This document shows, one piece after another, positions 1 to 60,710 of a stretch of 64,000 nt of DNA. Position 1 is the first letter of the stretch, and each line of letters opens with the position of its first letter. The notes beneath the pieces were generated by a model. The model was not told the origin of the DNA. It worked only from the letters and a program-made list of their open reading frames with translations, and made no database searches. The DNA is from Halorarum halophilum. GTDB taxonomy: Archaea > Halobacteriota > Halobacteria > Halobacteriales > Haloferacaceae. Location of the stretch: assembly GCF_013401515.1 (NCBI RefSeq), contig NZ_CP058529.1, forward strand, positions 1,240,001 through 1,304,000, written 5' to 3'. Both the position numbers and the translations under genes were made by a program.

Positions 1-231
1 GTATTGGGTCTTCATCCGTTCTACCACCGTTCAGGAGGCGTTCCGGGGGCATAAACGCCCCACAACATCAGCCTGCCACGCGCTGTCTTCTATCCGTACT
101 CCGGAGTGGAGTGCGAACACCGTTTTTGATCGGCGTTTCGGAGTCCACCGAACTCCGACTGCATCGTCGGATCGTCTGGGAATCCGACGGGCGGGCGACG
201 CGAGCGAGGAGGACCCCGCTAGAAGCGGTCG
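1..231. other. Left edge, no gene recognised
   Basis: No convincing coding sequence is seen before the stop of the enoyl-CoA hydratase gene at 232. Only short palindromic stretches occur, such as the one around 101-117. The open frames here lack haloarchaeal codon bias and are shadows of the downstream gene. The tract is probably the 3' flank of that gene plus the flank of a gene lying outside the window. Confidence 0.5.
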
Positions 232-1008
232 CTACTCGAACTCCGGGTCGCGCTTGTCGACGAACGCCTCCATCCCCTCGCGCTGGTCGTGCGTCCCGAA
301 CAGGCCGGCCCACACGCGGCGCTCGTAGGTGAGTCCGGCGCCCTGCGGCTCCTCGTGGACGGCGTTGATGGCCTCCTTCGCCGCCCGGAGGGCGAACTTC
401 GGCTTGGCCGCGAGGTCGCTCGCGAGGTCCGCGACGCGCTCGTCGAGCTGGTCGTGGGCGACGACCTCGCCGACGAGGCCGTACTCGCGTGCGTCGGTCG
501 CGTCGACGCGCTCGCCGAAGAAGATGAGCCGGCGGGCGGTCTCGTCGCCGACGAGTCGGGGGAGCCGCTGGCTGCCGCCCCAGCCGGGGATGATGCCGAG
601 GTCGATCTCGGTCTGGCCGATGACCGCGCGCTCGGAGGCGACGCGGAGGTCGCAGGCGATGGCGAGTTCGCAGCCGCCGCCGAACGCGTAGCCGTTGATC
701 GCCGCGACGGTCGGCGCGGGGAACGTCTCCAGTTTCGACGCGACGCCGTGGCCGAGTTCGGCGTACGCCTGCGCCTCGGGCGTCGAGAGGTCCTTCATGT
801 AGCTGATGTCTGCCCCGGCGACGAACGCGTCCTCCCCGGCTCCCGTGAGTACGAGCGCCCGCGCATCGGCCGCCTTCGCCTCGTCGATTGCCTCGTCGAG
901 CGCCTCCAGCGTCTCGACGTTCAGGGAGTTGAGCTTGTCCGGGCGGTCGACGGTGAGCGTCGCCACCCCGTCCTCGACGTCGAGCGTGACCGTGTCCGAG
1001 TCTGGCAT
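232..1008 (-). CDS. Enoyl-CoA hydratase/isomerase family protein
   Basis: A 258-residue crotonase-fold protein, the normal length for the family, expected to hydrate trans-2-enoyl-CoA in cytosolic fatty-acid or amino-acid degradation. The CoA/oxyanion-hole segment FVAGADI lies at 62-68 and NGYAFGGGCE at 105-114. The two glutamates that act as catalytic pair in mitochondrial crotonase are both present here (Glu114 and Glu134 in GQTEIDLG), so hydratase activity is more likely than one of the divergent crotonase reactions. The exact substrate cannot be read from the sequence. The gene stands alone, divergent from the DUF5797 gene at 1125. A 3-hydroxyacyl-CoA dehydrogenase that could act after it lies far away at 44193. 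Confidence 0.93.
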   Translation of the reverse strand: MPDSDTVTLDVEDGVATLTVDRPDKLNSLNVETLEALDEAIDEAKAADARALVLTGAGEDAFVAGADISYMKDLSTPEAQAYAELGHGVASKLETFPAPTVAAINGYAFGGGCELAIACDLRVASERAVIGQTEIDLGIIPGWGGSQRLPRLVGDETARRLIFFGERVDATDAREYGLVGEVVAHDQLDERVADLASDLAAKPKFALRAAKEAINAVHEEPQGAGLTYERRVWAGLFGTHDQREGMEAFVDKRDPEFE

Positions 1009-1124
1009 GCGCCAGGAATCGGCGCGGCGGGCCGTAACTGTTCCCCCGGACGCCGGCGGGTGCAGGAGGGTTCGACCTCACCGAATCGAGAGGTCCAAAT
1101 ACTCCCGGAGGAAACGCCCGGCCG

Positions 1125-1628
1125 ATGAGCCTCACCGACGAGGAGCTGGAGCGGTTGGCCGACGTCGTGCGCCTCCAGCCGACGAAGAACTCGGAGCTGG
1201 GCGAACGGTGGGGGATGGAGAGCGGCAGCGACGTCCACGGCTACCTCGAGAACCACCTCTCCGACTACTACTACCGCGACGACAACAGCCTCATCCGCGC
1301 GACGAGCGAGGCCGCCGAGCTGACCGGCGTCGAGCCGGGCGTCGAGGACGACGGCGAGGAGGGTGGCATCCCCGACCGCATCCGCGTTCCCGAGCTACAC
1401 AGCCAGGTGTTCGCCGTGCTCGCCGGCCCCGACGAGCGCTCCGAGTCGGTGGTGTCCGTCCTCCAGAAGCTTCGCGAGCGGTTCGACGTCGACCCGGAGG
1501 TGGGCGATGTCCGGCGCGCGCTCCAGAGCCTCCGCCGGAAGAACGTCGTCGAGGTCGAGTACCGCACCGTCCCCACGTTCCGGCTCGCCGTCGAGCGCGA
1601 CGCCGTGGACGTGGGCGTCAGCGAGTAG
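1125..1628 (+). CDS. DUF5797 family haloarchaeal protein, probable winged-helix
   Basis: A 167-residue acidic protein matching what I recall as the haloarchaeal DUF5797 family; no biochemical function is known to me. The N-terminal ~65 residues (LADVVRLQPTKNSELGERWG...) read like a short helical DNA-binding module, followed by an acidic linker. A second helical half (about 85-165) includes VLQKLRERFDVDPEVGDVRRALQSL and ends in a beta-strand-like VVEVEYRTVPTFRL, a winged-helix-like arrangement. Its 3' end overlaps the convergent DUF5787 gene by 11 bases. A transcriptional role is inference. Confidence 0.8.
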   Translation: MSLTDEELERLADVVRLQPTKNSELGERWGMESGSDVHGYLENHLSDYYYRDDNSLIRATSEAAELTGVEPGVEDDGEEGGIPDRIRVPELHSQVFAVLAGPDERSESVVSVLQKLRERFDVDPEVGDVRRALQSLRRKNVVEVEYRTVPTFRLAVERDAVDVGVSE

Positions 1629-2631
1629 CCGTCCCCGTTCCGGGCTCCGTTCCCGTCTCCGCCTTCTCCCGTTCCCGCTCCCGACGCCGGCCCAACAGCG
1701 CGCGGATCCCCTTCCCCGGCCCACCCTCGATGGGCCAGCCGTTCGTCCGCCACCCGGGCGGCTCCGGCGAGAACTCCGGACAGCCGCCCGAACACTCCGC
1801 GGCCGTCGGAACGCGCTCCTTCGCGCCGCAGTACGGCACCAGCGCCCGCCCCTCGCGCCGGAGTTCGAAGTGCCGACAGTCGGGCCGCATCGTCTCGCGG
1901 AACGAGCGCCACCCCTTGCCGTAGCCGCGCTCGGCGAGTTCCAGCCGCTTGTCCGGGTCGCCGTCGGCGTCGAGCCGCGTCGGGTGCCAGAGCACCTCGG
2001 CGGCGTCCGGTCCGACGCCGTCGCCGAAGTCGAACTCCAGCACGCCTACCTCGACCGGCATGTCCTCGAGCAGCGCGGGCGACACGCGGTTCCCGGTCGC
2101 GCCCGTCGCGACCCACACCTCGTCGGCGAGGCCGGCGTCGAGGTCGTGCCGGAGTTGGCCGGCCAGCGCGCGCGCGGCGCTCGCGTCGAGATCTGGCTTG
2201 TTCTCGACGACGACCACCCGTTCGACCCAGTCGGGGTACTCGCGGACGCGGCGGAACTCCACGCGGCCGTTCGGCCCACGTCGTTTCTCGATCAGGTCGC
2301 GGCCGGCCGCGCGGTGGACGGCCGCGCGGACGTACCGCCACGGGAACCCGGGGTGCGGGAGGGCGTCGCGGTACCACTCGAACGCCGCGGGGGCGTCGCG
2401 GACGACCCGGAGGAGGTCCCTGTCCAGGTCGCGCTCGCCGAACAGGCGGCGCTCAGCGAACGCCTCCGGGTCGACCTCCAGAATAACTGTGTCCCAGCGC
2501 CGGTTCTTCGTCCCGAGCTGTCGGGCGACCACGACGGGGCGCTCGCCGTCCGTCGGATGCCAGGCGAGTTCCGCCCACCTGCACACGAGCAGTTCGAACG
2601 CGAACTCGCTGTCGCCCGCCCCGGGAAACAC
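1618..2631 (-). CDS. DUF5787 family protein
   Basis: A 337-residue protein recognised as the haloarchaeal DUF5787 family, function unknown. A central segment VVVENKPDLD followed by ALAGQLRHDLDAGLADEVWVATG resembles the ENK/VEVK core and downstream strand of PD-(D/E)XK-type nuclease folds; that link is my inference. A C-terminal cluster with Cys and His (DCRHFELRREG, PYCGAKERVPTAAECSGGCP) could bind metal. The extreme C-terminus is Arg/Glu rich and low in complexity. The gene overlaps the 3' end of the convergent DUF5797 gene and lies downstream of the Nudix gene on the same strand. Confidence 0.8.
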   Translation of the reverse strand: MFPGAGDSEFAFELLVCRWAELAWHPTDGERPVVVARQLGTKNRRWDTVILEVDPEAFAERRLFGERDLDRDLLRVVRDAPAAFEWYRDALPHPGFPWRYVRAAVHRAAGRDLIEKRRGPNGRVEFRRVREYPDWVERVVVVENKPDLDASAARALAGQLRHDLDAGLADEVWVATGATGNRVSPALLEDMPVEVGVLEFDFGDGVGPDAAEVLWHPTRLDADGDPDKRLELAERGYGKGWRSFRETMRPDCRHFELRREGRALVPYCGAKERVPTAAECSGGCPEFSPEPPGWRTNGWPIEGGPGKGIRALLGRRREREREKAETGTEPGTGTATR

Positions 2632-2808
2632 GTCAGGGGGGACGCCGCTGGGGTGGAAATCGGTTTCGGTGGCGCCGTCCGAAACCGTGCGACGAGCCGG
2701 TCGCTACTGGCCGCACTTGCTATCGGATGCCCGCGAGTAGATCCGGAGATCGAGCGAGCGTCGCAGTCGCTCAGGGACGGGCGGGCGAGGGGGCTTTCGA
2801 GTCGCTCG

Positions 2809-3273
2809 CTACCCCTCAGACCGCTGGAGCAGGTACTCCTCGTCCGCCTCCTCCTGAAGCTGGTCGAGGTAGTCGTGGGCATCACGGAGGATGTCGCGCG
2901 GACCGTCCTGGGTGATGGTGTTGAGCGCCTGCTCGTAGTCGCGCCACTGGAGGTCGCGGTGTTCCGTCGAGAGTTCGGCCGACGCCTCGAACGAGTGGGC
3001 GATGAACAGGTGCACCGTCTTGTGGATGGTGTTCCCGCCCGCCTGGAAGACGTAGTCGTACTGCTCGCGGAAGCCGTCGATGAGTCTGAAGTCACCGATT
3101 CCCGCCTCCTCCTGCACTTCCCTGATCGCCGTCTGCTGGAGCTCCTCTTCACCTTCGACCCCGCCCTTCGGGAACTCCCAGTCCCCGGGTCGGCTCTTCA
3201 GGAGCAGGTACTCCCGGTGGCCGCGGGTTTCGCGGAAGAGGATGGCTCCGGCACTGGTCGCTTCGACCGGCAT
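2809..3273 (-). CDS. Nudix hydrolase, diadenosine tetraphosphatase-like
   Basis: A 154-residue Nudix protein. The full Nudix box GX5EX7REUXEEXGU is visible at residues 37-59 (GGVEGEE...REVQEEAGI). The N-terminal TSAGAILFRE and KSRPGDWEFPKGG segments are typical of bis(5'-nucleosyl)-tetraphosphatases, which cleave Ap4A-like dinucleotides; substrate assignment is by family resemblance. The ATG at 3273 is supported by a box A at about 3298-3305 on the same strand, giving a nearly leaderless transcript. It shares a divergent promoter region with the uS10-like gene. Confidence 0.9.
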   Translation of the reverse strand: MPVEATSAGAILFRETRGHREYLLLKSRPGDWEFPKGGVEGEEELQQTAIREVQEEAGIGDFRLIDGFREQYDYVFQAGGNTIHKTVHLFIAHSFEASAELSTEHRDLQWRDYEQALNTITQDGPRDILRDAHDYLDQLQEEADEEYLLQRSEG

Positions 3274-3297
3274 TATCGTTAGGTAAGCAACCCGGTG

Positions 3298-3305
3298 TTA
3301 AGAGA
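3298..3305 (-). promoter_or_regulatory. Box A for the Nudix gene
   Basis: On the minus strand the sequence reads CTCTTAAC, centred about 28 bases before the start codon at 3273, the spacing expected for a leaderless haloarchaeal transcript. Assigned by position and composition only. Confidence 0.45.
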
Positions 3306-3432
3306 ATGTCGGACCGGGAAACGGGCGGATAGCCGACGTGACGGGGAGTTCGGCCGCCGCCGGGTCGGGGCCGGCGGGTAGATGTGCTTTTACGCATCGC
3401 GCGCACAGTGTCGAACCGACCCAGTCCACACC

Positions 3433-50568: not shown

Positions 50569-53500
50569 ATGATGCGCGGCGGAGACAACCGAATATTCGC
50601 GGTACTGTTCGCGGTACTGATGATGACGTCGATGTTCGCCGGCACGGTGGCCTTCACCGGGTCGGCGTCCGCCGCACCCGGCGACGTCCTGTATCGCGTG
50701 AACGGAGGCGGATCGACCGTGGCGGCCACCGACGGCGGCCAGGACTGGATCGCCGGTTCCGGATCGGCGTACGTGAGCGGTGGATCGACGTACTCCACAG
50801 CGAGTAGCGTCTCGACCGACGGGACCGTCCCGGCGAGTACGCCGAGCTCCGTGTTCCAGAGCGAACTGTACGGCGACCAGCAGTGGACCTTCTCCGACGG
50901 CATCCAGAGCGGCGAGGAGTACGAGGTCCGCCTGTACTTCGCCGAGATATACCACGGCGTCGACGGCGGCAACGCCGCCGGCGGCGAGGGTGACCGCGTC
51001 TTCGACGTGAGCGTCGAGGGTGAGACGGTCCTCGACGACTACGACATCTACGCCGACGTGGGCTCGGCGACCGGTACGATGAAGTCGTACACGGTCGCGC
51101 CCGACGACGGCCAGATCGACGTCGGCCTCACGACCGAGGTCGACAACGCGAAGATCTCCGCCATCGAGATCGTCGAAGCCGAGCCCCAGCCCGACACGCT
51201 CGGCGGACCGTCGAGCGTCGACTTCGGCACCGTGCTCGTCGACGATTCCGAGACCGAGACGGTCACGGTGACGAACCTCGGCGACGACGGCGACGCGGAC
51301 ATCACGATCGACGACGTCTCCGTCGCCGGGGACGACGCGTTCTCCGCGGGCGCTCCGTCACAGGCGACGCTCGCGCCCGGCGAGTCCGCGGACGTTCCGG
51401 TGACGTTCGCGCCCTCGGACGCCCAGTCAAAGGCCGCGACGCTCACCATCGACCACTCCGGGAGCAACTCCCCGCTGGAGGTCGCACTCTCCGGCGAGGG
51501 CGCGAGTGACGTCCCGGTCGGCTTCAGCGAGTCCACGCTGCAGGGCTTCAGCGCCGGCAACCCGACGGCCATCGACTTCGGGCCGGACGGCCGGGCGTAC
51601 GTCTCCACGCAAGGTGGAGCCGTCTATGCGCTAGAGGTCGAACGCACGGACGGAGGCGACTACCAGGTCGTCAACGAGGAGCAGATCGACGCGATCGAGG
51701 ACATCCCGAACCACGACGACCTCGGGAACCTCGACGCGGGCGAGACCAACAGGCAGATAACCGGACTCACGGTCGGCGGCACGGCCGAACAACCGATCGT
51801 CTACGTCTCCTCGAGCGATCCCGAGATACGTGTCGGACAAGACACTGACGCCACCGACACAAATTCCGGCGCGATCTCCCGGCTGGCGTTCGACCGGAAC
51901 GCGGACGGGAGCCTCGCGAGCGTCGACCACGACGTGATGGTCCTCGGACTCCCGCGCTCCGAGGAGAACCACGCCACGAACGGCCTCGACCTGACCGCCG
52001 ACGGCGACACGCTGTACGTCGCACAGGGCGGGCACACCAACAAAGGGGCCCCCGGTGACAACTTCGGACACACGCCCGAGTACGCGCTCTCCGCGGCGGT
52101 CCTCGAAATCGACCTGGCACAGATCGAGGCCAACTACCAGGCGAAGAGCCTCCAGAACGAGAACGGGAACTACCCGGACCTCGACTACCTGTACTCGATC
52201 CCGACCGTCCAGGGTGGCGACCTGCCCTTCGGCGGCGACGACGGCCTCAACCAGGCCAAGATCGTCGAGGGCGGTCCGGTTCAGGTCTACTCGCCCGGGT
52301 ACCGGAACCCGTACGACCTCGTCCTGTCGGAGGACGAGCAGCTCTACGTCATCGACAACGGCCCGAACGGCGGCTGGGGCGGCCAGCCGGAGGGCGACGG
52401 TGCGAGCGGCGTCTGTACCAACGTCCCTAACGAGGACGGGAGCTACGGGACCGGCGACCAGCTCCACCTCGCCACCGAGGGTTCCTACGGCGGCCACGCC
52501 GCGCCGATCCGGGCGAACCCGGACGACGCCGGCCTCTACGACGCGGACGGGAACCAGTACCACGACTTCGACTCGTCGGACACGCCCGTCCCGTTCGACA
52601 TGGCCAACCCCGTCGAGTGCGACTATCAGGACCCGAACGAGGACAACTCCATCGGTCCGACGTTCGGCTGGACCGGTGGCATCACGGAGTACACGGCGTC
52701 CAACTTCGGCGGCGAGATGCAGGGTGACCTGCTCGTCGTCGAGAACAGCAACACCATCAAGCGCGTTCAGCTGAACGCCGCCGGTGACGGCGTCACCGAA
52801 GTCACGTCGCCGTTCAACACGGCCGGTGCGCTGGGCATCACCGCGCAGGACGACGACGAGGCGTACCCCGGAACCATCTGGACCGCCAACCACGGTGATG
52901 GCGACGTCACCGTCTTCGAGCCGAACGACTTCGGCGACGGCGGTGGCGACCAGTGCACGGGGGCGGACGACCCGTCCCTCGACGAGGACGGCGATGGTTA
53001 CGACAACGCCGACGAGATCGACGCGGGTTCGGACCCGTGCTCCGCGGCGTCCACGCCCGCTGACTTCGACGACGACGGGACCTCGAACGTCAACGACCCC
53101 GACGACGACAACGACGGGCTCGACGACACCGAGGACCCGTTCGCGATCGACCCGAACAACGGGCTCGACACGAACCTGCCGGTCGCCTACGACTTCGCGC
53201 CCAACTCCGAGTCCGGGACGATCCTGAACCTCGGCTTCACGGGCGTGATGACGAACGGTCAGGACTACCAGGAACTCTACGACCCGGACGAGGTGACCGC
53301 GGGCGGCGCGGCCAACGTCCTGACGGTCGAGAACGTTCCACAGGGTGACGCACACCAGAACACGAACACTCAGCAGCACGGCTACCAGGTCGGCGTGAAC
53401 GCCGACGAGCCGTTCACGATCGAATCGACGGTGAACGGGCTTCCCGACGACGCGGAGTCGTTCCAGTCACAGGGGATCTTCCTCGGCACCGGCGACCAGG

Positions 53501-56500
53501 ACAACTACGCGAAGCTGACCGCCACTGGCTTCAGCTCCGGAAGCGGTTCCGGCGTCCAGTTCGCCACGGAGGAGGACGGGAGCTTCACCGATGTCGCGAA
53601 CCCGCCGGCACCGACCGCCGGCAACGCGACCACGCTCTCCATGACGGTGTACCCGAGCAACGGCACCGTCGAGGCGTACTACGCCGTGGACGACGGCGAA
53701 GAACAGTTCGTCGGCGAGACGACCGTTCCGACGAGCTGGTTCGACACCGCCGACGGGAACGGCACCGCCGTTGGCGTCATCGCGACGTCCAACGGAGCGA
53801 GTTCGACGTTCGACGCGACGTGGCAGAACCTGTACGTCGAGCAGCTGAACCCACCCGCGAACCAGCCGCCGACGGCCGACGCGGGCGCGGACGTCACTGT
53901 CGATGAGGGACAGGAGGTCACGCTCGACGCCTCGGGCTCGACCGACCCCGACGGCGACACGCTCGGCTACACCTGGACGCAGACGTCGGGCAGCCCCTCG
54001 GGGCTGCTCGACATGAGCGACAGCGAGCAGGTGACGTTCACCGCCCCCGACGTGGACGGTGACACGACGTTCACCTTCCAGGTCGAGGTCGCCGACGGCA
54101 ACGGAGGCACCGACACCGACACGGTCGACGTGACGGTGCAGGACACCGACTCGGACACCGGCGGCGACATGTCCGTCGCGGAGGCCGTCGCGATGGGTGG
54201 CGAGAACGACACCCTTATCGAGGATTCGGAGATCCAGCAGGCGATCAACTGGTGGTCGACCGGCGGCGAAGTGCCGAACACCGGCGGGCAGACCATCGAC
54301 GACTCGGAGATCCAGACCCTCATCAACATGTGGGCGACCGACGCCAGTGTCGGCGGCGGGAGCGGAGGCGAAACCGGCTCGGCGCTGGTCGAGATCACGC
54401 CCGACAGCGGGCTCGAGACCAGCACCTACGGCGGTGGAACCTACCAGGTGACGAACACCGGCGAGAAGGAGATCGCGGCGGTTTCGTTCGACCTCAGCAC
54501 GGCGACGCTGCCGGACATGGTGTTCGACCCGCAGGGTACCGCGGGTGACCCGACCGGCGAGGGTCTCAACATCGCCAGCGACGGCGGCACCGGCATCACG
54601 ACCGCCGAAGGGGACGAAGCGTTCTCCCAGCCGCACAACGGGCAGGACGCCGACGACGGCTACGACGTGATGACCGTCGAGTTCGACGACTTCCAGAACG
54701 GCGAAACCGCGACCTTCTGGGCCGACAACGACCCGACGAGCATCAAGGGCGCGACGGTCGGCTCCCAGGAGGCCGGTCCGGTCTCAGGACTCGAACTCGC
54801 CCGCTCGACGGTGACGATCACCTACGCGGACGGTACGACCCAGACCACCCAGCTGATGGGTGACGGGAGCGACGGCGGCTCGACCGCCGTCGTCACCGAG
54901 GGCGAGACTCCGGCGCCGACCATCGGCGCACAGGACGTCTCGCTCGACAGCGGCGTGCTCGACGGCTACCACAGCGGGGCGACGGTCTCCGAGGCCGGCC
55001 AGACCATCATGGTCACCGGCGAACCCGGCGAGACGGTCACGCTCGTGCGCGTCGAGGGCGAACTGACGCTGACGAACGTCCCGAACGACGGCTACAACAT
55101 CGAAGAGTACGAGGCGAACAACGCACAGAACGTCGAGTACTACACGGCGACGGTCGGCTCGAACGGCCAGGCAGAGATCCCGGTCACGCTGACCGACACC
55201 ACGTCCGACGGCGACGACAACGCCGGCTACAACTACTTCGTGGCCGCGCACGGGGAGGCCTCCGGCGACATGGGCCTCGCCTCGAACGTCGTTGTCCTCC
55301 AGTACGACGAGAGCGCCGGCGACGGCGACACCGGCGACGGCGACGTCGCCTTCGCCGTCAACGCCGGCGGATCCGAGTACACCGCAGGGGACGGCACGGT
55401 CTTCCAGGCCGACACCGGCTTCAGCGGCGGGAGCACGTACAGCGTCACCCAGGACATCGGCGACACGCAGGACGACCCGCTGTACCAGACCGAACGGTAC
55501 GGCGACTTCTCGTACGACGTCCCCCTCGAGGACGGCGAGTACGAGGTCACCCTGCACTTCGCCGAGATCTACCAGGGCGTCTCCGAGAACGACGGTGTCG
55601 ACTCGACCGGTCCCGACGACGGGACTCAGGAGAACGACCGGGTGTTCGACGCCTCGATCGAGGGCCAGCAGGTCCTGGAGAACTACGACATCTACGCCGA
55701 GGTCGGCCCGCTGAACGCGACCCAGGAGACGTTCACGGCCGATGTGACCGACGGCGAACTGAACGTCCAGTTCAGCACCGTCTACGACAACGCGAAGGTC
55801 AGCGCCATCGAAGTGCGGACCGCGAGCGATGACGGCGACGGCAACGCGGCGCCATCCGTCGACTCGATCAGCGACCTGACGGTCACCGAGGGCGACTCGG
55901 CGTCCGTCCCGGTCAGTGCCTCCGACGCTGACGGCGACGCGCTGTCGCTGTCGGTCGACGGTCCGAGCTTCGTCGGTCTCGACGACGCCGGCGACGGCAC
56001 GGGGACGCTCAGCGTCGCCCCGCAGTCGGGCGACGCCGGGACGTACACGGTCGACGTGACGGCCGACGACGGCACGACCACGACCACCGAGAGCTTCGAG
56101 GTCACGGTCGAAGCCCCGTCCTCGGGCGGAACCGGTTCGGCGGACTTCACGGTCAACGAGAACGGCGGCATCGACGCGAGCACCTACAGCGGCGGCTCGT
56201 TCGAGGTCACCAACACCGGCGACAAACAGATCTCGTCGGTGACCTACGACCTGAGTTCGGCGACGTTCCCCGACGTGGTGTTCGACCCCGACGGGACCGC
56301 CGGCGACTCGGCCGGCAAGGGCTTCACCGCCGACAGCGGCGGGAGCGCGACCGGCCTCCAGGGCGGGTCGTTCGCTGCGCCGCACAACGGTCAGGACGGT
56401 GCCGACGGCTACGACGAGCTGACGACCACGTTCGACGACTTCGAGAACGGCGAGACGTTCGCCTTCTCGACGGACATCGACCCGACGAGCATCAAGAACG

Positions 56501-57594
56501 CCCAGGGGACGGGCGCGGCCGGCTCCGTCTCCGGCCTCGAGCTCACCGGCGCGACGGTGACCGTCGAGTACGCCGACGGCAGCACGCAGACGACGCAGCT
56601 GTTCGGCGACGGGAGCGACGGCGGCTCGCAGGCGACAGCGTCGGACGACCTCGCGAGCGCACCGACGCTCGGCGTCGACGGCGCCTCGCTCGATTCGGGC
56701 GCCCTCGCCTCCCAGCACAGTGCGGCGACGGTCTCCGAGGCCGGCCAGACCATCACGGTCACCGGCCCGGCGGACGCGACCGTGGTACTGCTTCATGTCG
56801 AGGGACAGCTCGAACTCGCCAACCAGGCGAACGGGTACGACCTCGAAGCCTACGAGGCGAACACCGCCGAGAACGTCGACTACCAGACGGTCGACCTCGG
56901 CAGCGACGGCGAGGCCACGGTCGACGTGACCCTCACCAACACCTCGAGCAGCGGCGTCGAGGGCGGGTACAACCACTTCGTCGCCACGGTGCAGGACGGC
57001 GACGGCACCGGCGCGACCTCGAACGTGGTCGTGCTGAAGTACGACGAGTCGAGCGACACGACGGGTCCGGAGTCGCAGGTCCTCCACCGCGTGAACGCGG
57101 GCGAGGACACGACCGTCCCCGCGACCGACGACGGTCCCGACTGGACCGGCGTCTCGGACACGTCCTCGCCGTACCTCGCCTCCGTGGCGAGTTCGGACGC
57201 GGGGACCTACTGTGCGGGCGACGACGTCACGGCCGACGGGACGGTTCCCTCGTCGACGCCCGACGCGGTGTTCGACTGCGAGCGCTACGGGGAGATGACC
57301 TGGGAGTTCCCGGTCGACGCCGGCCAGGAGATCGAGGTGCGACTCTACCTCGCCAACTCGTACCCCGGCGCGAGTGAACCCGGTGACCGGCAGTTCAACG
57401 TCTCCATCGAGGGGACGCAGGTCCTGACGCAGTACGACCCCGTGGCCGACGTCGGCCACGCCACCGGGACGACGAAGAGCTTCACCGTCACCGACGACGG
57501 CGACGGAACGGTCACGGTCGCCTTCGAGCAGGGGGCGGTCGAGAACCCCGAGGTCAGAGCCATCGAGATCGTCGAGGAGGGCGACTCGCAGTAG
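50569..57594 (+). CDS. Giant secreted malectin/beta-propeller/dockerin-like multidomain protein
   Basis: A 2,341-residue protein with a Sec signal (about 1-36). Approximate domains in order: malectin-like carbohydrate-binding domain 40-204; choice-of-anchor D (ASPM/Hydin-like) domain 208-311; beta-propeller resembling soluble sugar dehydrogenases 318-790; calcium-binding thrombospondin-3-type repeats 800-861 (DEDGDGYDNADE, DPDDDNDGLDD); lectin/LamG-like sandwich 871-1091; PKD domain 1093-1188; degenerate dockerin-like repeat 1201-1256 (IEDSEIQQAINWW, IDDSEIQTLINMW); ~310-residue module A1 1271-1581; malectin 2 1591-1751; cadherin/Ig-like 1763-1848; module A2 1858-2161, a duplicate of A1; malectin 3 2168-2339. 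No archaeosortase PGF motif or C-terminal membrane helix is seen, so surface retention would need a partner such as the cohesin-like proteins downstream. Catalysis by the propeller is unproven. Confidence 0.85.
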   Translation: MMRGGDNRIFAVLFAVLMMTSMFAGTVAFTGSASAAPGDVLYRVNGGGSTVAATDGGQDWIAGSGSAYVSGGSTYSTASSVSTDGTVPASTPSSVFQSELYGDQQWTFSDGIQSGEEYEVRLYFAEIYHGVDGGNAAGGEGDRVFDVSVEGETVLDDYDIYADVGSATGTMKSYTVAPDDGQIDVGLTTEVDNAKISAIEIVEAEPQPDTLGGPSSVDFGTVLVDDSETETVTVTNLGDDGDADITIDDVSVAGDDAFSAGAPSQATLAPGESADVPVTFAPSDAQSKAATLTIDHSGSNSPLEVALSGEGASDVPVGFSESTLQGFSAGNPTAIDFGPDGRAYVSTQGGAVYALEVERTDGGDYQVVNEEQIDAIEDIPNHDDLGNLDAGETNRQITGLTVGGTAEQPIVYVSSSDPEIRVGQDTDATDTNSGAISRLAFDRNADGSLASVDHDVMVLGLPRSEENHATNGLDLTADGDTLYVAQGGHTNKGAPGDNFGHTPEYALSAAVLEIDLAQIEANYQAKSLQNENGNYPDLDYLYSIPTVQGGDLPFGGDDGLNQAKIVEGGPVQVYSPGYRNPYDLVLSEDEQLYVIDNGPNGGWGGQPEGDGASGVCTNVPNEDGSYGTGDQLHLATEGSYGGHAAPIRANPDDAGLYDADGNQYHDFDSSDTPVPFDMANPVECDYQDPNEDNSIGPTFGWTGGITEYTASNFGGEMQGDLLVVENSNTIKRVQLNAAGDGVTEVTSPFNTAGALGITAQDDDEAYPGTIWTANHGDGDVTVFEPNDFGDGGGDQCTGADDPSLDEDGDGYDNADEIDAGSDPCSAASTPADFDDDGTSNVNDPDDDNDGLDDTEDPFAIDPNNGLDTNLPVAYDFAPNSESGTILNLGFTGVMTNGQDYQELYDPDEVTAGGAANVLTVENVPQGDAHQNTNTQQHGYQVGVNADEPFTIESTVNGLPDDAESFQSQGIFLGTGDQDNYAKLTATGFSSGSGSGVQFATEEDGSFTDVANPPAPTAGNATTLSMTVYPSNGTVEAYYAVDDGEEQFVGETTVPTSWFDTADGNGTAVGVIATSNGASSTFDATWQNLYVEQLNPPANQPPTADAGADVTVDEGQEVTLDASGSTDPDGDTLGYTWTQTSGSPSGLLDMSDSEQVTFTAPDVDGDTTFTFQVEVADGNGGTDTDTVDVTVQDTDSDTGGDMSVAEAVAMGGENDTLIEDSEIQQAINWWSTGGEVPNTGGQTIDDSEIQTLINMWATDASVGGGSGGETGSALVEITPDSGLETSTYGGGTYQVTNTGEKEIAAVSFDLSTATLPDMVFDPQGTAGDPTGEGLNIASDGGTGITTAEGDEAFSQPHNGQDADDGYDVMTVEFDDFQNGETATFWADNDPTSIKGATVGSQEAGPVSGLELARSTVTITYADGTTQTTQLMGDGSDGGSTAVVTEGETPAPTIGAQDVSLDSGVLDGYHSGATVSEAGQTIMVTGEPGETVTLVRVEGELTLTNVPNDGYNIEEYEANNAQNVEYYTATVGSNGQAEIPVTLTDTTSDGDDNAGYNYFVAAHGEASGDMGLASNVVVLQYDESAGDGDTGDGDVAFAVNAGGSEYTAGDGTVFQADTGFSGGSTYSVTQDIGDTQDDPLYQTERYGDFSYDVPLEDGEYEVTLHFAEIYQGVSENDGVDSTGPDDGTQENDRVFDASIEGQQVLENYDIYAEVGPLNATQETFTADVTDGELNVQFSTVYDNAKVSAIEVRTASDDGDGNAAPSVDSISDLTVTEGDSASVPVSASDADGDALSLSVDGPSFVGLDDAGDGTGTLSVAPQSGDAGTYTVDVTADDGTTTTTESFEVTVEAPSSGGTGSADFTVNENGGIDASTYSGGSFEVTNTGDKQISSVTYDLSSATFPDVVFDPDGTAGDSAGKGFTADSGGSATGLQGGSFAAPHNGQDGADGYDELTTTFDDFENGETFAFSTDIDPTSIKNAQGTGAAGSVSGLELTGATVTVEYADGSTQTTQLFGDGSDGGSQATASDDLASAPTLGVDGASLDSGALASQHSAATVSEAGQTITVTGPADATVVLLHVEGQLELANQANGYDLEAYEANTAENVDYQTVDLGSDGEATVDVTLTNTSSSGVEGGYNHFVATVQDGDGTGATSNVVVLKYDESSDTTGPESQVLHRVNAGEDTTVPATDDGPDWTGVSDTSSPYLASVASSDAGTYCAGDDVTADGTVPSSTPDAVFDCERYGEMTWEFPVDAGQEIEVRLYLANSYPGASEPGDRQFNVSIEGTQVLTQYDPVADVGHATGTTKSFTVTDDGDGTVTVAFEQGAVENPEVRAIEIVEEGDSQ

Positions 57595-57950
57595 CGAGAC
57601 CGCACGACCACGATGAGCGACGCCTCCACATCCGTCGGCGGTGCCCGCCACCGGTCGACCACTGAGGTCGCCCGTGCGAGCACCAGCGACGGCCGTGCGA
57701 GCACCAGCGACGGCCGCGTGTGGACGCGGGTCCACGACGGCCCCGGCACTCTCCGGAGCGCCGGAGGTCGACGCCGACTGGCGCCCTTCGGGGGTAACTG
57801 CGACGATACCGAACCGCGCCAGCCGAGCCGTCGACGCGGCCCGAGGAGGCCGCTCGTCGGTCACGACGACGGGACGAACCCCGTTCGATCGGGGCATCGG
57901 GCGACGACCACCCCACGACAGCAGCGATGTCGACGACACACCACTGACAG
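57595..57950. other. 356-base gap with 21-bp tandem duplication
   Basis: Between the giant gene and the cohesin/dockerin gene I support no coding sequence; an Arg/Ser-rich open frame here is not haloarchaeal in composition. A 21-base unit beginning CGTGCGAGCACC occurs twice in tandem at 57673-57693 and 57694-57714. No clear box A precedes ATG 57951, so readthrough from the giant gene is possible. Confidence 0.5.
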
Positions 57951-59915
57951 ATGAACGAGACAGCACGAAGACGATTCAGAAAGACGATGGCCGCGCTCGT
58001 CGCGCTGGGACTCGTCCTATCGGTCCTCGGACCGGTCGGGACGGTCGCGGCGCAGCCGAGCGTCTCGGTAACACAATCGGTCGATAGTACGACGATCGCC
58101 CCCGGTGAGACGGTCACGATCACGACCGAGTTCACCGTCAGCGAACTCAACGCGCCCCAGTTGAGCGCCACGACGCCGGACGGGTGGGAGATCGAGTCCC
58201 AGTCCGCGACCGGCCCGGTGGCGTACAACGACGGGACGTGGACGTGGCTCGCCGGCGACGACGACGGTGTCAACGTCAGCTACACCGTCGAGTACACCGT
58301 CAGCGTCCCCGATGACGCCGACCCTGGCGAGTACACGATCAGTGCGGACGGATCGGCGCTGAGTCCGAGCGATTCGAGCGCGACCTCGGACAGCGCCACG
58401 ACGACCGTCACGGTCGCGGAGCCTGACGAGAACGAGCCGCCCACCGCGTCGTTCACCAGCAGTCCGGACTCCCCGGAGACCGGCGAGCAGGTGAGCTTCG
58501 ACGCCTCGGCGTCGACCGACGACAGTGCGATCACGAGCTACGAGTGGGACTTCGACGACGGCACGACCGCCACGGGCGCGTCGGCCACCCACACGTACGA
58601 CAGCGCGGGCGACTACGACGTGACGCTCACCGTCACTGACGACGACGGTGAGACCGACACGGCGACCCAGACGGTCTCCGTCGGCGAGGCAGCCAGTCCG
58701 GCGAGCTTCCAGCTGTCGGCACTGGACGTGGAGTCACCCGTCACGCAGGGTGACACCGCCACGGTGACCGCGACGGTCGAGAACGTCGGCGACGAGTCGG
58801 CCACGCAGACGGTCGCGCTCGAGATCGACGGCACCGAGACCGACAGCCAGGACGTCACGCTCGACGGCGGGGCGAGCCAGCAGGTGAGCTTCGACGTCGA
58901 CACCACCGACCTCTCGACAGGCGACCACGACGTGACGGTCTCCACCGAGGACGACAGCGCGTCCGACACGCTCGCCGTGAGCGAGGAACCGCCGGAGAAC
59001 CTGAACCCGTCGGCCGCCTTAGATTCGTCGCCGTCCGCCCCCGAACCGGGTGAGACCGTGACCTTCGACGCCTCGGCGTCGAACGATCCCGACGGCGCGA
59101 TCACGAGCTACGAGTGGGACTTCGACGGCGACGGGACGGCCGACGCCACCGGCGAGCAGGTCACCACCTCGTTCGACAGCGCGGGCGACTACGACGTGAC
59201 GCTCACCGTCACCGACGACGACGGTGAGACCGACACGGCGACCCAGACGGTCTCCGTCTCGGAAGCGCCGGACGGCGACGGACCCGCAACGACGGTCAGT
59301 CTCTCGCCCGAGAGCGACCTCGTGGCGGTCGACCAGTCCACCGAGTACGACGTCGTCGTTGACGACACCGACGGCGGCGTCGGCGCCTACGAGCTGACGA
59401 TCACGGTAGAGGACCCGAGCGTGGCGTCCATCACCGGCGTCGACCTCGCGGGCGTTTCCGACGAGGAGCTCACCGACGTGCAGATCGCCGACGATGGCTC
59501 CTCGGTCACCATCGAGGCGGTCCTGGTCGACACGGAGGACGACGGGAGCGCGACGCTCGGAACCGTCACCGTGCAGGCGAACGCGGAGGGGACCAGCGAC
59601 CTCTCGCTCAACGTCTCCGACCTGGGGACCGAAGCCGGGGAGTCGTACGACGTGACCGGCACGAACGGCGCGTCGCTCACGGCCTCGACCCTGGTCGTCG
59701 GGAACTCCGAGAATCCTGCACAGGACCTCGACGGTGACGGCGACTATGAGGACATCAACGGCGACGGTACCGTGGACCTCCTCGATGTCCAGACGCTGTT
59801 CGCCGACCGCGACGGACCGGCCGCGAGTAACTCGCCCGAGGCGTTCGACTACAACGGCGACGGCGAGTTCACCCTCAGCGACATCCAGGCACTGTTCGCC
59901 CAGGAGATGGCGTAA
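57951..59915 (+). CDS. Secreted PKD protein with cohesin-like domain and C-terminal dockerin
   Basis: A 654-residue protein with a Sec signal (about 1-35). Approximate domains: NEW3/DUF11-like sandwich 40-160; PKD 163-245; CARDB-like 250-346; PKD 350-440; cohesin-like sandwich 446-584 (GGVGAYELTITVEDPSVASI, VQIADDGSSVTIEAVL); then a dockerin of two calcium F-hand loops, DINGDGTVDLLD (601-612) and DYNGDGEFTLSD (633-644), each followed by the LFA-type helix. Having both a cohesin-like domain and a dockerin makes it a natural adaptor. The cohesin-like part is clearly homologous to that of the next protein, which starts 9 bases after its stop. Confidence 0.85.
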   Translation: MNETARRRFRKTMAALVALGLVLSVLGPVGTVAAQPSVSVTQSVDSTTIAPGETVTITTEFTVSELNAPQLSATTPDGWEIESQSATGPVAYNDGTWTWLAGDDDGVNVSYTVEYTVSVPDDADPGEYTISADGSALSPSDSSATSDSATTTVTVAEPDENEPPTASFTSSPDSPETGEQVSFDASASTDDSAITSYEWDFDDGTTATGASATHTYDSAGDYDVTLTVTDDDGETDTATQTVSVGEAASPASFQLSALDVESPVTQGDTATVTATVENVGDESATQTVALEIDGTETDSQDVTLDGGASQQVSFDVDTTDLSTGDHDVTVSTEDDSASDTLAVSEEPPENLNPSAALDSSPSAPEPGETVTFDASASNDPDGAITSYEWDFDGDGTADATGEQVTTSFDSAGDYDVTLTVTDDDGETDTATQTVSVSEAPDGDGPATTVSLSPESDLVAVDQSTEYDVVVDDTDGGVGAYELTITVEDPSVASITGVDLAGVSDEELTDVQIADDGSSVTIEAVLVDTEDDGSATLGTVTVQANAEGTSDLSLNVSDLGTEAGESYDVTGTNGASLTASTLVVGNSENPAQDLDGDGDYEDINGDGTVDLLDVQTLFADRDGPAASNSPEAFDYNGDGEFTLSDIQALFAQEMA

Positions 59916-59924
59916 CTCGAACCA

Positions 59925-60710
59925 ATGACTGACACACGCGCACCGACCACGTGCACGCGACTCGGGGTCGTGCTGCTCGGGCTGCTCCTGGTGACCGCGT
60001 CGGCGGTCACGGTAAGCGCGGCCGGCAGCACGACCGTGAGCCTGCACGCGGCGGGGAGCACTGTCGAGGAGGGTGAGACGACGACGATCGACGTCGTCGT
60101 CGATAACGCGGATGGCGGGGTCGGCACGTACAACGCGACCGTCGCCGTCGACGACCCGGACGTCGCGTCCATCACCGACGTTGAACTCGCCGGCGATCCG
60201 GGCCTCGACGAGGTCGAGATCGCCGACGACGGGTCGAAGGTGTCCATCCGCGCGGCGCTGATGAACACCACTGACGCCGGCGCCGTGACGATCGCGACGA
60301 TCACCCTCGCCGGCGACGCCGACGGTTCGAGCGACGTCTCGCTCTCCGTCGCCACGCTCGGTGACGAGGAGGGACGCGCGTACTCGGTGTCCGAGACGCG
60401 AGGGTCCTCGGTCGCCGTCTCGGAGGACGACGACGATGACGACGAGGACGACTCCTCATCCGATTCGGCGGACGCATCGAGCACCGACGGGCCGACCGCC
60501 ACACCCGACGGGACGAGCACGACGGATTCGTCCGTCGACCCGACCGGGACGTCGTCACCCGTGACAACGACTCCGTCGGCCGACTCCCCGCCGACCTCCT
60601 CCGATGAGAACTCGGGGAGTTCGCTGCTCCCGACGAGTCTGCTCAACGTCGCGCTGGTCGCCGGGGCGGTCCTGGTGACCGGACTGCTGCTCGCGCGGCG
60701 GTTCCGCTAG
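59925..60710 (+). CDS. Membrane-anchored cohesin-like surface protein
   Basis: A 261-residue protein. It has a signal peptide (about 1-33), one cohesin-like domain (about 35-160; GGVGTYNATVAVDDPDVASITDV, VEIADDGSKVSIRAAL, TIATITLAGDADGSSDVSL), a very acidic Asp/Glu/Ser stretch (about 163-190), a Thr/Ser/Pro-rich stalk (to about 232), and a C-terminal helix LLNVALVAGAVLVTGLLLARRF. The polarity fits a type I surface anchor presenting the cohesin outside, resembling an anchoring scaffoldin with one receptor site. It is in tight order with the dockerin-bearing gene upstream. Confidence 0.85.
   Translation: MTDTRAPTTCTRLGVVLLGLLLVTASAVTVSAAGSTTVSLHAAGSTVEEGETTTIDVVVDNADGGVGTYNATVAVDDPDVASITDVELAGDPGLDEVEIADDGSKVSIRAALMNTTDAGAVTIATITLAGDADGSSDVSLSVATLGDEEGRAYSVSETRGSSVAVSEDDDDDDEDDSSSDSADASSTDGPTATPDGTSTTDSSVDPTGTSSPVTTTPSADSPPTSSDENSGSSLLPTSLLNVALVAGAVLVTGLLLARRFR

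Follow-up and report, generated by a model that had tools for sequence, protein, structure and literature searches.

Within a 64,000-nucleotide stretch of the Halorarum halophilum genome (contig NZ_CP058529.1, positions 1,240,001 to 1,304,000 of the forward strand; hereafter "the window," whose numbering is used for Table 1), three consecutive genes on the plus strand encode a large secreted protein, which we call the client, a dockerin-bearing adaptor, and an anchor ending in a putative membrane helix. Cohesin-dockerin couplers are used by bacteria in cellulosomes, and the three proteins described here probably make up a surface scaffold built from such couplers. An original prediction, made from the sequence alone, had placed the three genes in a row, and the open reading frames (ORFs) were found at those positions and on that strand. 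The client and adaptor genes are separated by 356 bp, the adaptor and anchor genes by 9 bp. The signal of the client is of the haloarchaeal surface-glycoprotein type (25.6 bits for TIGR04207, whose cut-off is 24.6), and the signal peptides of the adaptor and anchor are, by eye, of ordinary Sec type. Profile searches of the whole genome found exactly three cohesins of the divergent family discussed below, one dockerin and one copy of the client module termed d1; the three cohesins are those of the adaptor, the anchor and a PhoX-like protein (C1:184607-185005).

In the adaptor, the signal peptide is followed by an N domain, a PKD domain, a CARDB domain, a second PKD domain, the cohesin and the dockerin. 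The anchor was predicted to consist of a signal peptide, one cohesin-like sandwich, an acidic Thr/Ser stalk and a C-terminal membrane helix, and its sequence agrees with this in content and order; orthologous anchors likewise end in a membrane helix, some with a PGF motif (L047, L170). Long anchors with two cohesins (L037:7369-10080; L041:5162-8173; L089:19263-21503) seem to lack a membrane helix and end in repeats of the kind TRDEIxxxKYxxDFxxLSxETxxEVQxxYxxQF, a different attachment end.

Table 1. Features of the client, adaptor and anchor genes in the window.
Feature	Position	Strand	Extent or description	Basis
Client gene	50569..57594	+	2341 aa, secreted	ORF call, Pfam, TIGR04207
Malectin domain 1	50683..51192	+	residues 39-208	PF11721
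GSDH-like propeller	51514..52938	+	residues 316-790	homologs bacterial (Bacteroidetes, others) and haloarchaeal
d1 module	54163..54354	+	residues 1199-1262; two loop-helix units, EIQQAI / EIQTLI, without calcium ligands	
R domain, copy 1	54373..55323	+	residues 1269-1585	without usable Pfam or PDB match
Malectin domain 2	55339..55818	+	residues 1591-1750	PF11721, best stretch 1594-1747
R domain, copy 2	56131..57063	+	residues 1855-2165	56% identical to copy 1
Malectin domain 3	57073..57591	+	residues 2169-2341	PF11721
Adaptor gene	57951..59915	+	654 aa	ORF call, Pfam
Adaptor cohesin-like domain	59268..59717	+	approximately residues 440-589; 9-strand sandwich	AlphaFold2, Foldseek, hhalign
Adaptor dockerin	59688..59912	+	two calcium loops, DINGDGTVDLLD and DYNGDGEFTLSD	PF00404, conservation, PDB
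Anchor gene	59925..60710	+	261 aa	ORF call, ortholog C-termini
Anchor cohesin-like domain	60006..60443	+	50% identical to that of the adaptor	
C-terminal hydrophobic segment with ARRFR	60624..60707	+	putative membrane anchor	sequence

The question of whether the sandwich domains of the adaptor and anchor are cohesins was addressed by profile and by fold, since single-sequence searches of Pfam, NCBIfam and the PDB had detected no cohesins; among 52 haloarchaeal relatives, a single one matched Pfam Cohesin, with an E-value of 0.014. The two domains are homologous to each other (50% identity over 134 amino acids, E=6e-36). A profile search placed two cellulosomal cohesins on top, weakly (E=0.38). 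Comparison of the 52 sandwich domains with 23 archaeal cohesins collected with PF00963 gave a probability of 93.7% in hhalign (P=1.9e-7 over 112 columns), against at most 8% for the CARDB, PKD, malectin, LamG-like and N-domain controls. The AlphaFold2 model of the adaptor tail, comprising cohesin and dockerin and calculated from a 47-sequence alignment, has a predicted local distance difference test score (pLDDT) of 94.4 and a predicted template modelling score of 0.82; searched against the PDB with Foldseek, the adaptor domain retrieved cohesins as its best 39 matches (E-values from 7e-10 to 5e-6; the Archaeoglobus fulgidus cohesin 2xdh is sixth), followed by pilins and integrins. The cohesin fold of the anchor domain is taken from its identity to the adaptor domain. 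On profile homology and predicted fold, both sandwiches are best called divergent cohesins; the original prediction of two homologous cohesin-like domains thus stands, and placement in an unrelated Ig-like family is not what the searches returned.

The C-terminus of the adaptor exceeds the cut-off of Pfam Dockerin_1 (PF00404; 30.0 bits versus 22.9, E=6e-7) and is the only match in the genome. Positions 1, 3, 5 and 12 are D/N/D/D in both loops, and the calcium-ligand positions are retained in 20-23 of 23 sequences; the profile of these sequences matches solved dockerins and EF-hand proteins in the PDB. As had been predicted from its two calcium loops, the domain is by its sequence a genuine type I dockerin, which would bind a cohesin in a calcium-dependent manner. 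Adaptors of relatives carry one or two cohesins, and the L084 adaptor has a dockerin and no detected cohesin. In Candidatus Halobonum tyrrellensis the adaptor (L090:15995-18389) has neither cohesin nor dockerin, and ends in a tandem unrelated repeat of 80 residues with an apparent frameshift.

Of 148 genomes belonging to the same family, 61 have relatives of the anchor; across the class, 112 of 242 genomes are matched by the cohesin profile. Genes at loci outside the window were called with a codon-usage script. A propeller client was found at 27 distinct haloarchaeal loci (in Halobellus, Halorubrum, Halogranum, Haloarcula, Halomicroarcula, Halorussus and others), and at 23 of these the order is client, dockerin-bearing adaptor and cohesin-bearing anchor, so that the expectation of a three-gene order kept in other haloarchaea was borne out. 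The four exceptions are a locus at a contig end (L092), one with an adaptor and no anchor called (L166), the Candidatus Halobonum locus just described, and one with nothing downstream (L094). A tree built from 100 cohesin domains shows strong clustering by label (18 changes versus 51.6 in shuffles), the anchor cohesin of the window grouping with other anchors and the adaptor cohesin with other adaptors; such clades would fit two specificities as in cellulosomes, and would also fit an adaptor cohesin that is a structural companion of the dockerin, a reading weighed below. In a version of the cluster on a 248-kb plasmid of Halobellus sp. DFY28 (L211, 1-11490), two additional genes separate client and adaptor; RefSeq names the adaptor there "dockerin type I domain-containing" and the anchor "hypothetical protein." The third cohesin of the window genome forms the C-terminus of a PhoX-like secreted protein (L032:9532-12003, corresponding to C1:184532-187003), a relative of which, on a Salarchaeum plasmid, is annotated as alkaline phosphatase PhoX. 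A second recurrent pair consists of a PhoX-like protein ending in cohesin and dockerin, followed by a gene for a small cohesin anchor (L162, L163).

The domain order of the client is malectin, choice-of-anchor/HYDIN-like Ig, GSDH-like propeller, concanavalin/LamG-like region, PKD, d1, R, malectin, Ig, R and malectin. Both the TIGR04207 signal and PF11721, which matches in three stretches (whole-protein E=2e-64), agree with the predicted 2,341-residue secreted protein with three malectin-like domains; PKD and Ig domains were also matched in Pfam. The sugar-dehydrogenase-like propeller was sustained in part: an ortholog (L095) passes the Pfam GSDH cut-off (27.1 bits versus 25), but the window copy has no Pfam match, the cut-off for glucose/sorbosone dehydrogenase (PF07995) not being reached, and no sequence match in the PDB. 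It shares 38-71% identity with homologs in named bacterial and haloarchaeal loci. The R domain, of some 310 residues, occurs twice in the client and is retained in haloarchaeal and bacterial malectin/propeller proteins; it has no significant match in Pfam or the PDB.

The module that may attach the client is d1, which is conserved across an alignment of 29 sequences. Its AlphaFold2 model (mean pLDDT 82) has two matching loop-helix units, each helix being preceded by a short strand. The original prediction held this part of the client to be a degenerate dockerin-like repeat, a description that could not be upheld: in the loops GGENDTLIEDSE and PNTGGQTIDDSE the calcium ligands are missing at most positions and are not conserved, the module matches dockerins neither in Pfam nor in the PDB, its profile shows no relation to theirs, and a Foldseek search of the predicted fold against the PDB returned no significant match (best, calbindin, E=1.6). 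For these reasons d1 is not classed as a dockerin; its identity as a diverged dockerin was dropped after the negative profile, Pfam and PDB tests, and it is retained solely as a functional stand-in. A weak match to DUF3717 (20 of the 29 members, best E=4e-5, with the window copy under the cut-off) was judged to reflect a shared AINWW motif.

The distribution of d1 across clients is dockerin-like. Among 25 single-chain clients, 21 carry d1, three carry a canonical C-terminal dockerin (L039, L045, L095) and none carries both; the sole client lacking the two modules (L094) is followed by no adaptor or anchor within the 5 kb downstream. All three dockerin clients fall among the four without d1, an outcome expected by chance 4 times in 2300 if the two features were unrelated (the relatedness of the sequences being ignored). 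At two loci (L040, L041) the client is split, its first half ending in a canonical dockerin and its second half starting with a cohesin and d1, which gives the impression that a cohesin-dockerin joint has taken the place of a covalent link. Other secreted proteins terminate in d1 as well; one is encoded immediately upstream of an adaptor (L091) and two belong to the L043 cluster. It appears to be portable, being found at the end of a trypsin-like protease (L167:8023-9777), a small PKD protein (L168:7706-8581) and a metallophosphoesterase-like protein (L169:6015-7886).

Gene order and its conservation, the identity of the dockerin, the fold and homology of the cohesins and the membrane-helix-like C-terminus of the anchor form the observed basis for a three-tier cohesin-dockerin scaffold that probably displays the malectin/propeller client at the cell surface. 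The C-terminal helix would fix the anchor in the membrane, with the one divergent cohesin of this protein extended on the acidic Ser/Thr stalk, and the calcium-loaded dockerin of the adaptor would dock onto that cohesin. The adaptor's own cohesin, borne on a PKD/CARDB spacer arm, would grip the client by its attachment module, which is d1 in the window and a canonical dockerin in some orthologs. The three malectin domains and sugar-dehydrogenase-like propeller of the client would thereby be presented to extracellular carbohydrate. All of the binding events, the pairing of cohesin with module and the carbohydrate ligand are what we infer from that basis, and the joint between client and adaptor is the weakest step. 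The mini-scaffold of anchor, adaptor and client proposed originally is retained as to its cohesins, dockerin and gene order, but not as to the client module, which is no dockerin by sequence.

Several observations weigh against this display system. Pfam Cohesin (PF00963) has no match in the window or in the whole genome, and comparison of d1 with the dockerin profile in hhalign gave 0.2%, that is, no detectable sequence relation. The L167 protease and the small secreted protein of L168 both end in d1, yet no cohesin of this family was detected in their genome, an argument against strict pairing of d1 with cohesin. The L090 client keeps its d1 even though both cohesin and dockerin are gone from the adaptor. 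The co-occurrence of the cohesin and dockerin families across the 242 genomes of the class (together in 104, alone in 8 and 8, not at all in 122) favours the display system, but the figures are inflated by genes carrying both domains and, like all counts given here, ignore relatedness.

One alternative, that both sandwiches are Ig-like stalk domains of a generic kind, that the dockerin binds something else such as carbohydrate, and that the genes are mere neighbours encoding surface proteins, might draw on the missing Pfam Cohesin match, on a few family members that weakly match assorted Ig-like Pfam models, and on reports that call haloarchaeal dockerins substrate-binding (PMC10963439, PMC13260240); we consider it very improbable, as fold and profile tests pick cohesins over Ig-like controls, the family co-occurs strictly with dockerins in the class, and multi-cohesin proteins are found beside dozens of dockerin enzymes. 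Also unlikely is a scheme in which only the joint between adaptor dockerin and anchor cohesin is real. The adaptor cohesin would then serve its dockerin as a structural companion, as the X module does for the CipA dockerin; the client would reach the adaptor through some other contact or simply be secreted. That CARDB sits between cohesin and dockerin in L095 and L166, that several adaptors have two cohesins, that the canonical dockerins of the L039, L045 and L095 clients have no adjoining cohesin, and that the second client half in L040/L041 has a cohesin and lacks a canonical dockerin all speak against such a companion role, whereas it would account for the cohesin directly preceding the dockerin in most adaptors and in the PhoX-type proteins, which are themselves cargo (L162, L163), for the clustering of dockerin-adjacent cohesins apart from anchor cohesins, and for d1 being no dockerin by sequence. 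A further alternative, which leaves the display mechanism untouched, concerns the ligand alone: the client may bind the cell's own surface sugars, such as S-layer glycans or exopolysaccharide in adhesion or biofilm, and not nutrients from outside. No glycoside hydrolase or sugar transporter was recognised among the neighbouring genes on reading the ORFs of the window, three malectins suggest binding over breakdown, and the homologs are large surface-type bacterial proteins; set against a ligand from outside the cell, we regard own sugars as possible, if somewhat doubtful.

The reading of this family as true cohesins is supported by the multi-cohesin and dockerin content of other haloarchaea. 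One genome of 2.7 Mb (G149) has 70 dockerin and 14 cohesin matches, and another (G212) has 47 and 10; no cohesin of this family was detected in G197 and G203, which have 7 and 5 dockerins. In G212, a GH5 (glycoside hydrolase family 5) cellulase carries at least five fused cohesins, the contig end cutting the gene (L202, G212:C23:1-8000, at 3-3365), and the same contig has a run of dockerin-bearing GH9, GH5, GH18 and GH81 proteins (L210, G212:C23:12001-31000). By its gene content this is a candidate haloarchaeal cellulosome; the cellulase-fused cohesins belong to a clade different from those of the window. In G149, several proteins have two or more cohesins, and runs of dockerin proteins include GH10 and a ricin-type lectin (L204, L205, L206, L209). 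It is quite possible, at a little under an even chance, that haloarchaea as a group build surface complexes with their own cohesin family missed by standard models, ranging from a minimal set such as that of the window to full cellulosomes, with d1 as a calcium-free replacement for the dockerin on cargo.

In the open-licence literature, to which these statements apply (an earlier report elsewhere is possible), haloarchaeal dockerins are orphans without a known partner. Recent papers on natronoarchaeal and haloarchaeal dockerin enzymes assign the dockerin to substrate binding (PMC10963439, PMC13260240), no partner being known, and comparative genomics of cellulose-degrading haloarchaea calls the mechanisms almost unknown and does not mention cohesins or dockerins. 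The probable missing halves of these couplers were overlooked because the archaeal cohesins of this family fall under the standard Pfam cut-off. If the present reading is true, a co-encoded and co-occurring cohesin family would supply the partner of the haloarchaeal dockerins, large proteins could be retained at the surface by a plain mechanism in archaea without SLH (S-layer homology) domains or sortase walls, and the cohesin-dockerin pairs should function in saturated salt; it also becomes testable whether a dockerin can be replaced by a calcium-free module.

The layout resembles the Clostridium/Acetivibrio cellulosome in having an anchor with cohesin, an adaptor with cohesin and dockerin, and cargo with an attachment module, and the separate anchor and adaptor clades recall its separate cohesin specificities. 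It differs from that system in that the window has one cohesin per protein, and so per tier, and no glycoside hydrolase domain over the Pfam cut-off, in that attachment is by a membrane helix and not by an SLH domain or sortase, and in that the cargo module is without calcium ligands and the cohesins fall under the Pfam cut-off. Bacteroidetes malectin/GSDH proteins, such as those of Robiginitalea (L135) and Neolewinella (L124), share homologous propeller and malectin domains with the client but have no d1, and no adaptor or anchor of haloarchaeal type was found beside them (their neighbours were not searched in detail for cohesins); both of these bacterial homologs end in dockerin-like repeats. 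The dockerin enzymes cited above come from the same class of organisms and have type I dockerins, whereas here a co-encoded cohesin family offers a possible partner. Archaeal cohesins and dockerins were already known, from A. fulgidus (2xdh) and from anaerobic methanotrophic (ANME) archaea, whose proteins combine a dockerin with several cohesins in variable domain sets and have ABC-transporter cargo (PMC9012536), and the same paper cites work in which archaeal cohesin-dockerin pairs were shown to bind. Relative to these systems, and to the open-licence literature, what is new is a minimal and widely conserved haloarchaeal operon, probably for display, in which client, adaptor and anchor recur together with a separate, divergent cohesin family missed by standard models.

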